A stretch of DNA of 64,000 nt, taken from NCBI GenBank assembly GCA_010909725.1, contig JAACMV010000014.1, forward strand, positions 682,001 to 746,000. The letters run 5' to 3'. Both the position numbers and the translations under genes were made by a program. This document shows positions 3,388 through 7,078 of the stretch, one piece after another; position 1 is the stretch's first letter, and each line of letters opens with the position of its first letter. Source of the DNA: Picochlorum sp. 'celeri'. Taxonomy: Eukaryota > Chlorophyta > Trebouxiophyceae. The notes under the pieces are model-generated. The model was given only the letters and a program-made list of their open reading frames with translations, did no database searches and had not been told where the DNA came from.

Positions 3388-3679
3388 TTTCTTCCGACTC
3401 AATAATGATTGTTATCTTCCCGTTCTTATTATCACTTTTTCGCAGACGACAGGTTCTCGTGGAGAATTTATGGAAACGAATTCCTCGCGCTTTTCTGAGC
3501 GAGCGTACTTGATGTGGTGTTCGCACGATCTCTGCCATTCATTTGGTATCTTCTTTTGATTTTGGGTGCTTCTTGGAGAGAAACTCTTGTGTGCTAGGAG
3601 AAAGAAGCTCCGCCGTCGGAATCCCAACTTTAATATAGGTCAAGAAATTCAGTTGTGCAATTGCCCATGGGCTCTAAAC

Positions 3680-3767
3680 AGGGAAAGGCCGGGAGTTCGA
3701 ATCTCTCCAGAAGCACGAAGAAAATTCTATGCTTCTGTAGTTTAGTGGTTATAATATTCCTTTAGTA
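3680..3767 (+). tRNA. Circularly permuted tRNA-Thr(AGU) gene
   Basis: The 3' half lies upstream of the 5' half. 3680-3715 holds positions 38-73: A38, anticodon-stem strand GGGAA (3681-3685), variable loop AGGCC, T-stem GGGAG, T-loop TTCGAAT (3696-3702), CTCTC, acceptor strand CAGAAGC (3708-3714) and discriminator A (3715). A 15-nt spacer follows (3716-3730). 3731-3767 holds positions 1-37: acceptor strand GCTTCTG, TA, D-arm with GTGG, stem TTCCT, then TT, anticodon AGT (3764-3766) and A37. The acceptor pairs perfectly over 7 bp. The T-stem has five pairs, one a G-U; the anticodon stem has five, one a G-U. Invariant bases T8, A14, G15/C48, G18G19, A21, T33 and the TTCGA loop are present. G1-C72, C2-G71, G35 and U36 are the known yeast Thr identity elements. 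A run of five T (3774-3778) follows as a Pol III terminator, and leader CTAA can pair with TTAG at the 37/38 junction. The D-stem is weak (T13-T22 mismatch). No linear partner half is nearby. Confidence 0.9.
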
Positions 3768-3773
3768 GCACTC

Positions 3774-3778
3774 TTTTT
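3774..3778 (+). terminator. Pol III oligo-T terminator of the permuted tRNA
   Basis: Five consecutive T residues begin seven bases after the end of the tRNA 5' half, the expected position for RNA polymerase III termination of the permuted precursor. That it follows the 5' half, and not the upstream 3' half, supports a single transcript covering both. Confidence 0.6.
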
Positions 3779-4348: not shown

Positions 4349-4751
4349 TCAGCTACGAAACCGTCGAAGATGCTCCTGTAACTCCCTCTTAGAGCTAAAT
4401 CCCTGAAGTGTCAAGGGTGAGACAAACACTTGAGACATGTCCTTCACTATTCTCACCTTTGCTACTTCGTCCCTACATCTGCATATAGTCATCACAGATG
4501 AAACAAAAGCCACAATGAATGGCCCCACAGGCGGTCAACGTGTCGTACATGGCACAGGTGCTCATCTGCGACGCACATGAGAGGCAGAATACATGAGCAC
4601 AAGGATCCAATAGCCCAATCATATCACTTGGAAAATCGCAATTTGAACAAAAGTATGAAGATTTCTTGGAATGCTGCCCGCCTGGTTCAGTATTATTGGG
4701 GCCTATGGTTTTCTCTAGTTGAGCCGAGAACTGTTCTCTTTCAGCATCCAT
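4349..4751 (-). CDS. HAKAI-like RING E3 ligase (m6A writer complex family)
   Basis: Exons 4751-4549 and 4478-4349 with a 70-nt intron (gtacga...tgcag) give 110 aa. The splice restores the RING: FCSNCDFPSDM, then PCAHVFCLSCA, then STCAICRDEVAK across the junction. A degenerate C2H2-like segment follows (FSSKRELQEHLRRF), which in HAKAI/CBLL1 proteins is part of the phosphotyrosine-binding fold. The order CSxCDFP...PCxHVFCLxCA...CxxCxxxV...F.KR.E.. matches plant HAKAI, a partner of the mRNA N6-adenosine methyltransferase complex. The expected second-domain Cys pair (normally FICAAPHC) is not visible. The protein is much shorter than plant HAKAI (about 350 aa) and lacks its Pro-rich tail. It is divergent from CPSF73, with 194 bp between starts. 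Family assignment is good; function is inferred. Confidence 0.75.
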
Positions 4752-4945
4752 TGTATTCTCTTTCTAGAAATCTTTTTTTTTCATATACTGGATTCGCAAT
4801 ATTGCAGACCTCTATCAGAAATCATTTGCTTTATTTAATTCACAAATTAAGACAGTCTTGGATCATGATTGCTCATGGAGGGGTACAACTCATCACAAGT
4901 GCCGAAGACGGCATCGAAACTTGGATACTAATAATCAAAATCAAA

Positions 4946-7078
4946 ATGTCAAAGGATGAGGTGAGGGTTTCCGGTGGTGCTATCGACAACGTCGAAATAA
5001 TTCCACTGGGAGCTGGCCAGGAGGTGGGACGGTCATGCATTATCGTCAAGTACTTGGATAAGAGAATAATGATGGATTGTGGCATTCATCCTGGGTTCTC
5101 GGGGCATGCGTCGCTTCCATTTCTGGACCAAGTAAACCTTGCAGAGATTGATGTGATGCTGATTACACACTTTCACCTGGATCATTGTGCCGCTGTTCCC
5201 TTTGTTGTTGGCCATACGAATTTCAAAGGTAGAATATTTATGACTCATCCGACAAAGGCAATTGCACATACCTTGCTCAAAGATTTTGTGAAATTAAGCA
5301 AGTCTCAGAACTTCTTGTATGGGGATAAAGATGTGGAGGCTGCGACACAGAGAACAGAGGTGATCGACTTTCAGCAAACCATAGATATAGATGGAATCAA
5401 GATAACGGCGTATCGAGCCGGGCATGTTTTGGGCGCAGCGATGTTTATGGTGGAGGTTGCTGGAATGAGGTGCTTGTATACGGGGGATTATTCTCGCGTC
5501 GCAGATAGACATATGCCGGCAGCTGATTTACCAGTGAGTATGAGACCTGACATTGTCATTGTTGAATCCACATATGGTGTATCTCGCCACTTACCACGGC
5601 GAGAGAGGGAGGAGAAGTTTGCCACCATGGTACATTCAACAATAGCAAAGGGTGGAAGAGTTCTCTTGCCTGTTGTAGCCCTTGGGAGAGCACAGGAGCT
5701 GTTATTGATTCTCGAAGAATATTGGTCGAAGCACCCTGAGCTCCATGGTGTGCCAATTTATCAGGCAAGCGGCCTTGCTAGGAGAGCTATGACAGTGTAC
5801 AGGAGTTACATTGAGATGATGAATGATGATATCCGTGAAGCATTCACCACAGCCAATCCTTTCAAGTTCAAATATGTGACTCATTTAAAATCGACAGGGC
5901 AATTTGATGATGTTGGGCCTTGTGTTGTGATGGCAACTCCATCAATGCTGCAGAGTGGAATGTCACGAGAGCTGTTTGAGAACTGGTGTGGGGATCCCAG
6001 AAATTGCGTCGTGATCGCAGATTTTGCAGTTCAAGGAACATTAGCGCGAGATATTTTATCGAGTCCAAGCGATATACTGTCTAGATCAGGAGCACGCCTT
6101 CCATTGCGCTGTCAGGTGGATGCTATCTCATTTTCTGCTCATGCAGACTTTCCACAAACTTCTGAATTTCTGGACTCGCTGTCTCCCCCACATGTAATAC
6201 TTGTTCATGGCGAAGCAGCAGAGATGGGAAGATTGAAAAAGGCACTTGAACAACGCGCTGGAGCTCTTGGAATTTCCAGGACAGTGTACACACCAAAAGT
6301 AACTCAAGCTGTTTTAATTGCGCATGCCCCTCGTAGGACTGCACAAATCGTTGGATCTCTTGTTCAGGCAACAGAAATGGGAGTAGCAACAAAGAAAATA
6401 CAAGGTGTCGCCGTGAAACGAGGAGCAAGCATTGCCATTATGAATCAGGAAGATTTGCCAAGATATACCAAACTCCACACAGGATCTGTCACCCAAAGAC
6501 AATCAATAGCACTGCGTAGAGACTTTTCTGACGTTAGGCTTGCCCTTGAACTTACATTTGATGATATTGCAGCAGTAGAATCTGCTCAGACTGAGCATGA
6601 AGTTTCGCTTAGGATAGGAGACAGTGTCACAGTCACCCATAGCACTGCTACAAAAGATAGAGTACTGCTTGAATGGCTCGGTGGCACAGAAGCCGATATG
6701 ATTGCCGACGCTGTCATAGCTATGGTTTTGCAATCTGCAGGAGAACCTGCAGGTATCTGCGACGCAGAAGAACGAATGTTGGCCGCCATCAAATCTGGAG
6801 ACAACCAGGGTGCAGTACTCGCAGAAATGGGGCTGGTTTCCAAACTGTTGGATGCACAATTCGGCAAGACTAGAATAGACGAGAAACAAGGAATAATATT
6901 TGTGGACGTAGATGGCAAGCATGTGATCCTAACAACAGACCTCGACACTGGTGATGTCGATATCAAATGTGCAGACACTCAACTCAAGGCAAGAGTGGAA
7001 CGAGCAGTGTCTCGAATACATACAGCCGTCCATCCAAGCAAAATAATGATGCAAGACTCGATATCTCCAAAATTGTAA
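4946..7078 (+). CDS. CPSF3: CPSF73, pre-mRNA 3'-end processing endonuclease
   Basis: Metallo-beta-lactamase/beta-CASP nuclease that cuts pre-mRNA before polyadenylation in the nucleus. Single exon, 710 aa (human CPSF73 is 684). I start at ATG 4946 because MSKDEVRVSGGA leads directly into the conserved IIPLGAGQEVGRSC; the open frame continues upstream but overlaps the HAKAI-like gene. Visible motifs: THFHLDHC (zinc ligands, about residue 74), FMTHPTKAI, GHVLGAAMF, the beta-CASP region with ATPSMLQSGMSRELFE, FSAHADF (about 396) and LVHGEAAEM (about 420). The C-terminal CPSF73-100-like region follows. The stop codon lies inside TGTAA (7074-7078), the likely polyadenylation signal of its own mRNA. 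Assignment is firm. Confidence 0.97.
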   Translation: MSKDEVRVSGGAIDNVEIIPLGAGQEVGRSCIIVKYLDKRIMMDCGIHPGFSGHASLPFLDQVNLAEIDVMLITHFHLDHCAAVPFVVGHTNFKGRIFMTHPTKAIAHTLLKDFVKLSKSQNFLYGDKDVEAATQRTEVIDFQQTIDIDGIKITAYRAGHVLGAAMFMVEVAGMRCLYTGDYSRVADRHMPAADLPVSMRPDIVIVESTYGVSRHLPRREREEKFATMVHSTIAKGGRVLLPVVALGRAQELLLILEEYWSKHPELHGVPIYQASGLARRAMTVYRSYIEMMNDDIREAFTTANPFKFKYVTHLKSTGQFDDVGPCVVMATPSMLQSGMSRELFENWCGDPRNCVVIADFAVQGTLARDILSSPSDILSRSGARLPLRCQVDAISFSAHADFPQTSEFLDSLSPPHVILVHGEAAEMGRLKKALEQRAGALGISRTVYTPKVTQAVLIAHAPRRTAQIVGSLVQATEMGVATKKIQGVAVKRGASIAIMNQEDLPRYTKLHTGSVTQRQSIALRRDFSDVRLALELTFDDIAAVESAQTEHEVSLRIGDSVTVTHSTATKDRVLLEWLGGTEADMIADAVIAMVLQSAGEPAGICDAEERMLAAIKSGDNQGAVLAEMGLVSKLLDAQFGKTRIDEKQGIIFVDVDGKHVILTTDLDTGDVDIKCADTQLKARVERAVSRIHTAVHPSKIMMQDSISPKL

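Follow-up and report, generated by a model that had tools for sequence, protein, structure and literature searches.

The locus raises the question of whether a threonine tRNA whose two halves lie in reversed order along the DNA constitutes a working gene. In the window, meaning the whole 64-kb stretch that was analysed (C14:682001-746000, in an assembly of 27,412,692 bases and 30 contigs), no tRNA was recognised in the unrearranged sequence by ARAGORN (bacterial code, no introns) or by Rfam at gathering scores, as is expected from a permuted layout. Both halves of tRNA-Thr(AGU) are on one strand, the 3' half lying 5' of the 5' half, and bases 73 and 1 are separated by a 15-nt spacer (Table 1), a length inside the range of 1-74 bp given for the spacers of permuted tRNA genes in a 2014 review (PMC3978253). 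Once joined, the halves are called tRNA-Thr(agt) by ARAGORN, with 7/7 Watson-Crick pairs in the acceptor stem, 5/5 pairs in both the T-stem and the anticodon stem (one G-T in each) and 3/4 pairs in the D-stem, where 13-22 is a T.T opposition. The preliminary description had proposed a circularly permuted nuclear tRNA-Thr(AGU) gene with its junction at 37/38, and this remains the best reading given the ARAGORN call on the joined halves and the model score reported below (E=2.7e-17); the limits that it gave for the halves and the spacer, the perfect 7-bp acceptor stem and the five downstream T all agree with the sequence. Among the open frames of at least 250 aa, the flanking ones encode a TCP-1/cpn60 family protein (920-2425) and a CPSF73-like protein (4577-7078). 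Threonine codons in six large frames of the window, introns not considered, number 62 ACT, 39 ACC, 97 ACA and 33 ACG of 4857.

Table 1. Features of the permuted tRNA-Thr(AGU) locus, in positions of the window.
Feature	Position	Strand	Description and basis
TATA-like AATATA	3632..3637	+	Seven bases 5' of AAATTC; sequence reading
AAATTC upstream element	3645..3650	+	Common to linear tRNA genes; motif count
Leader CTAA	3674..3677	+	Predicted pairing with anticodon-loop bases 32-35 (TTAG, 3762-3765); 4/4 pairs
AC, first two bases of predicted 3-nt bulge	3678..3679	+	Predicted cut before 3680; register comparison
tRNA-Thr(AGU) bases 38-73	3680..3715	+	Anticodon-stem 3' strand, variable loop, T-arm, acceptor 3' strand, discriminator A; ARAGORN and model R2
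Spacer, 15 nt	3716..3730	+	Acceptor loop of predicted circle; 14 nt in the other haplotype
tRNA-Thr(AGU) bases 1-37	3731..3767	+	Acceptor 5' strand, D-arm, anticodon AGT (3764-3766); ARAGORN and model R2
TTTTT, predicted Pol III terminator	3774..3778	+	Sequence reading; T run of at least 4 after each of eight permuted genes

The element was scored with a model, R2, built by permuting in silico nine of this genome's linear tRNAs and containing no real permuted gene, which gave 65.4 bits on the Thr(AGU) stretch (E=2.7e-17, a roughly calibrated value). The 83.1 bits obtained there with an earlier model, R1, are not independent, this model containing the gene itself. A rule-based scanner marked one place in the window, which is the Thr(AGU) element with all three tested stems complete, and made 2 hits in 2.56 Mb of order-1 Markov sequence (40 windows), neither of them with all stems complete. 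Folding of the bare precursor did not separate it from shuffled sequences (z=0.20, with 115/200 shuffles folding at least as well). The permuted layout of Thr(AGU) is not due to chance.

The Picochlorum celeri assembly is described as a phased diploid of 27.43 Mb in two sets of 15 scaffolds with a G+C content of 46% (PMC7225527), and most tRNA loci were found paired on two contigs. The second Thr(AGU) allele, on C18, is identical in all 73 tRNA bases and in the 100 bases downstream, but departs at 1 position in the spacer (14 vs 15 nt), at 4 of the 100 upstream positions and at 4 lying further downstream, giving 9 differences in 3241 aligned columns. Because haplotype differences are so few, the unchanged 73 tRNA bases are weak evidence by themselves. 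A genome query with the 241-nt Thr(AGU) locus, in a search that skips very common words, returned 4 matches, corresponding to its two alleles and two alleles of Thr(CGU) (C19 and C11). Repeats do occur near some tRNA genes, so that a mobile or tRNA-derived repeat chancing to carry two half tRNAs was also considered, but matches confined to the alleles of this gene and of a different one make such an origin exceedingly improbable.

Thr(AGU) is one of at least eight distinct permuted genes in the genome, namely Thr-AGU, Thr-CGU, Ala-CGC, Ala-UGC, Arg-CCU, Arg-UCU, Tyr-GUA and Cys-GCA, represented by 15 copies, with seven genes present in both haplotypes and the Tyr copy taken from one. All eight are of type II (junction 37/38), the type at which the search was aimed. 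The Rfam YrlA family was used as a search proxy, since its tRNA-like domain has a permuted order of arms, and yielded 8 rows, all below cut-off, corresponding to Cys(GCA), Arg(UCU), Tyr(GUA), Ala(CGC) and Arg(CCU) (46/462 candidates scored). As this family also gives below-cut-off matches in 13/14 prokaryote control genomes, these rows count only through their confirmation by R2 and by the stems. Searching the genome with Ala(CGC) brought up Ala(UGC) as well as the other Ala(CGC) allele; the linear Ser(CGA), used in the same way, matched its own two alleles only. With 46/462 candidates scored, the proxy missed both Thr genes and Ala(UGC), three known permuted genes, and further ones therefore probably remain in the genome. 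All 15/15 joined copies were called by ARAGORN as a tRNA with the expected anticodon, and their R2 scores range from 45.8 to 65.4 bits, every other row being at 29 bits or less (the best is a fragment next to a linear Asn gene, described below).

In an alignment of 10 permuted sequences fitted to the R2 structure, 99.0% of 210 cells pair and 19/21 pairs change on both sides, while 0/500 shuffles reach any of five measures and slid structures pair at 39-55%. The alignment being fitted to that structure, and stem sequences varying between different tRNAs in any case, the modelled covariation identifies the elements as tRNAs with a permuted order and goes no further. Predicted folds close the acceptor stem over each of the 15 spacers and place inner hairpins in the Ala, Tyr and Arg(UCU) spacers, these being single predictions with no control. 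In both Ala genes the alleles differ in the D-arm and the spacer, with the 3' half and the anticodon arm identical or nearly so, and D-stem pairing is mostly kept despite the D-arm differences. The haplotypes diverge strongly from about the permuted Ala(CGC) gene onward; 36 nt of its trailer are repeated exactly some 3.65 kb downstream, beyond intervening reading frames (C10:935325-939200 and C16), a possible duplication or insertion beside a tRNA gene.

The use of the YrlA family brings in another reading, in which the element would be a tRNA-like, Y-RNA-like non-coding RNA that keeps its permuted form and has no part in translation. YrlA RNAs (RF02553) carry a tRNA-mimic T-arm, acceptor hairpin and D-arm in permuted order without being tRNA genes, and this same order of arms accounts for an Rfam match of 20 bits; such a score lies far below the YrlA cut-off of 69, and a YrlA-like identity was rejected on that basis. 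Anticodon arms of Thr, Ala, Arg, Tyr and Cys type would be unexpected in such RNAs, as would leaders that pair with the anticodon loop and the absence of linear isoacceptors from the loci found (both detailed below); this reading is considered highly unlikely.

Upstream of each 3' half, the four bases ending two before base 38 were compared with anticodon-loop bases 32-35 in the eight genes, one copy each. At this register 27/32 cells pair, against 10-17 at eight other registers tested. Shuffling partners between genes gave a mean of 20.4, with 183/100000 shuffles reaching 27; the mean is as high as this because T33 and the base opposite hardly vary. The leader and loop pairs are CTAA/TTAG in Thr(AGU), CGGA/TTCG in Thr(CGU), CAAA/TTTG in Ala(UGC) and GTAG/CTGT in Tyr, with pairing of 3/4 in Arg(CCU), Arg(UCU) and Ala(CGC) and of 2/4 in Cys. 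Judged from these sequences, leader and anticodon loop appear to co-vary. In eukaryotic splicing-endonuclease substrates, the 3' site takes the form of a helix followed by a 3-nt bulge. The precursor had previously been likened to a bulge-helix-bulge substrate, of which the central leader helix and the 3-nt bulge at 37/38 are borne out as predictions by the comparison of the eight genes, but the outer helix is not evident by eye, leaving half of the motif. Domains of the tRNA splicing endonuclease (intron endonuclease) are encoded in the genome. The tRNA intron endonuclease domain, as a 112-aa open frame, was seen at seven places (C9, C12, C26, C10, C16, C21 and C25), in the first three at the same distance from the contig start (1564-1779), which may point to a splicing-endonuclease subunit duplicated in subtelomeric regions.

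Linear tRNA genes were searched with RF00005, which scored 63/866 candidates; 34 rows passed E<=0.001, and relaxing the threshold to E<=10 brought in two more, both weak (19 bits), for a total of 36. The 34 rows correspond to 18 linear loci, 16 present in both contigs of a pair and 2 found once, with the anticodons Lys-CTT, Ile-AAT, Asn-GTT, Val-TAC, Glu-TTC, Glu-CTC, Lys-TTT, Met-CAT, Asp-GTC, Pro-AGG, Phe-GAA, Ile-TAT, Arg-CCG, Trp-CCA, Leu-CAA, Pro-TGG, Gly-TCC and Ser-CGA. These were assigned by ARAGORN, which places an anticodon-loop intron in 8/18 of the genes, save for three intron-bearing loci re-read from the anticodon stem (L029, L031 and L032), whose ARAGORN labels of Trp, Arg and Gln became Arg-CCG, Leu-CAA and Pro-UGG. 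An extra ARAGORN call on locus L020, a Gly tRNA with a long intron, was taken as spurious and excluded.

No anticodon is common to the 18 linear loci and the permuted genes, and no linear Thr, Ala, Tyr or Cys gene was found with 63/866 candidates scored. A linear Thr family had been named beforehand as the genomic counter-evidence to seek; none occurs among the 18 linear loci, and a genome search with the joined Thr(AGU) 73-mer matched nothing beyond its own two halves in each haplotype. With 63/866 Rfam tRNA candidates scored, a linear Thr gene might still exist. Within the same scope, several expected tRNAs, among them His, Gln, Gly-GCC and most Leu and Ser, were found neither linear nor permuted, and both lists are consequently incomplete. 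A DNA query resembling Thr(UGU) gave no match, even though 19 of its bases also occur in the 5' half of Thr(CGU), so that this search mode misses short similarity.

These results bear on whether the element might be a dead relic, that is, truncated neighbouring tRNA copies (a 3' half, then a 5' half) left unexpressed after tandem duplication. Tandem duplication is a proposed origin of permuted tRNA genes, and tRNA debris may exist in this genome in the form of the 18-nt T-arm-like fragments that abut base 1 of two linear genes. The two Thr(AGU) halves are, however, fully complementary across the acceptor and anticodon stems and unchanged in both haplotypes, the same layout and leader register recur in eight different tRNAs, and no intact replacement Thr gene was found by RF00005 (63/866 candidates) or by the 73-mer search, which together make a relic very unlikely. 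We hold with high confidence that the locus works as a nuclear tRNA-Thr(AGU) gene, circularly permuted at 37/38 (type II). The element is real and probably functional, a gene of a known kind.

The fragments just mentioned share an identical sequence, AGAGGTCCCGGGTTCAAA, next to linear Asn-GUU (L019) and Phe-GAA (L027), and differ from the own T-arm of both genes; R2 gives 29 bits at the Asn copy. Whether AGAGGTCCCGGGTTCAAA is a displaced B box or the debris of a permuted or tandem state is a question that it raises. A repeat, CTTGGCGTG.AGAAAACACGGCTC followed by poly-A, begins about 80-145 nt upstream of the Asn, Asp, Phe and permuted Ala-UGC genes (L019, L025, L027 and L067). Its poly-A lies towards the gene, resembling the end of a tRNA-targeting retroelement, in a comparison of selected tRNA loci and the window.

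The Thr(AGU) unit carries a TATA-like string and AAATTC upstream and a T run downstream, forming a putative promoter and terminator as read from the sequence. Exact AAATTC occurs within 100 nt upstream of 6/8 permuted and 9/18 linear genes, compared with 157/3588 flank tiles and 78/1278 window tiles. For the 15/26 genes, the binomial P at the window rate is 2.4e-12, for a motif chosen after viewing the same sequences. The exact motif is absent from Thr(CGU) and Cys, and elsewhere its distance to the gene is 23-97 nt. A TATA-like string (TATA, TATT or ATAT, strings chosen after looking) precedes AAATTC by 5-22 nt in 10/16 cases at tRNA genes vs 12/84 in the window, with 6/6 at permuted and 4/10 at linear genes. 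In the U6 gene, TATATATT is followed by CAATTC, a near match to AAATTC.

Regarding the transcription factors, Cyanidioschyzon merolae is reported without TFC1 and TFC3 homologues (PMC3978253), whereas here Tau95 and B-block TFIIIC-like proteins are encoded, and a TFIIIC loss as in C. merolae was rejected. The Tau95 protein was detected at E=6e-17, for a family with matches in 0/14 prokaryote controls, and one further protein combines a B-block (E=1e-9) with a GTF3C1 winged-helix domain (E=7e-12), the B-block family alone being weak evidence since it also matches in 8/14 prokaryote controls.

By analogy with the Cyanidioschyzon model, we infer how the Thr(AGU) gene would be transcribed, circularised, cleaved in order and used in decoding. 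RNA polymerase III would start upstream at the TATA-like/AAATTC promoter and stop at the T run, and the precursor would fold with its acceptor stem closed by the spacer. Pairing between the leader and the anticodon loop would then direct the splicing endonuclease to its two cut sites, 3' of base 37 and 5' of base 38, and ligation of the ends would yield a circle from which RNase P and tRNase Z would remove the spacer. Addition of CCA would follow, and A34 would probably be converted to inosine, in which case this tRNA could, together with that of the permuted Thr(CGU), read all four Thr codons. The cell probably has to circularise the Thr(AGU) RNA in order to use it.

The closest parallel in gene content comes from C. 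merolae, whose Thr(AGT) and Thr(CGT) genes are both permuted at 37/38 in Table 1 of the 2014 review (PMC3978253). The likeness extends to the same two Thr isoacceptors, the junction, a short spacer (24 and 31 nt in C. merolae, 15 and 20 nt here), an upstream TATA-like sequence, a T run and a CCA that is not encoded (PMC3978253). The range of junctions differs, being of types I-IV in C. merolae (PMC3978253), whereas all eight genes found here by a search aimed at type II are of that type. Prasinophytes (Ostreococcus and Micromonas) and chlorarachniophyte nucleomorphs with permuted genes belong, like the present alga, to the green lineage. In the review's table, 18/19 green-algal permuted genes have their junction at 37/38, including Cys(GCA) and Arg(TCT) (PMC3978253); that set is made up of Ser genes in 10/19 cases and lists no Thr, Ala or Tyr (PMC3978253), all three of which are permuted here. 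Permuted Ser genes are also described in chlorarachniophyte nucleomorphs (PMC4494063).

The preliminary description was right to cite Cyanidioschyzon and prasinophytes as known carriers, to which Trebouxiophyceae have to be added, since Auxenochlorella UTEX 250-A of this class is the closest relative with reported permuted tRNA genes (PMC12636532). Auxenochlorella is also a vegetative diploid, in which the set of tRNAs from tRNAscan-SE became complete only once permuted genes had been recognised (PMC12636532, PMC12633428). The suggestion that the Thr gene may be undescribed agrees with the open-access literature searched, supplements aside, in which no report of permuted tRNA genes in Picochlorum was found. 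In the accessible text of two Picochlorum genome papers, one used tRNAscan-SE and has no mention of "permuted" (PMC11092101) and the other mentions neither "tRNA" nor "permuted" (PMC6811619), and in that of PMC13353863 the words "Picochlorum" and "permuted" occur in the reference list only. Permuted tRNA genes are a known kind of gene, Trebouxiophyceae included, and those of Picochlorum are new members of it.

For the genome as a whole, we lean cautiously towards a picture in which a large share of the nuclear tRNA set is permuted, with decoding by Thr, Ala, Tyr and Cys tRNAs depending on permuted genes only. In this picture, the upstream TATA-like/AAATTC promoter would be common to permuted and linear genes with TFIIIC retained, the leaders would be exchangeable guides co-varying with the anticodon loop, and the spacer and D-arm of the Ala genes would have been rebuilt between haplotypes with pairing mostly kept.

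Permuted tRNA genes are rare, with 34 listed in the 2014 review (PMC3978253), and ordinary tRNA finders miss them. What surprises is the number of such genes in one alga, together with the recurrence of a Thr pair that a red alga also has in permuted form. Since in C. merolae, too, Thr(AGU) and Thr(CGU) carry the 37/38 permutation, common ancestry versus convergence becomes testable. A fast-growing diploid alga with at least eight permuted genes would offer a practical system for asking why such genes persist, how RNA polymerase III manages transcription when the A and B boxes are inverted though TFIIIC is apparently present, and in what way the splicing endonuclease is directed by the leader pairing.
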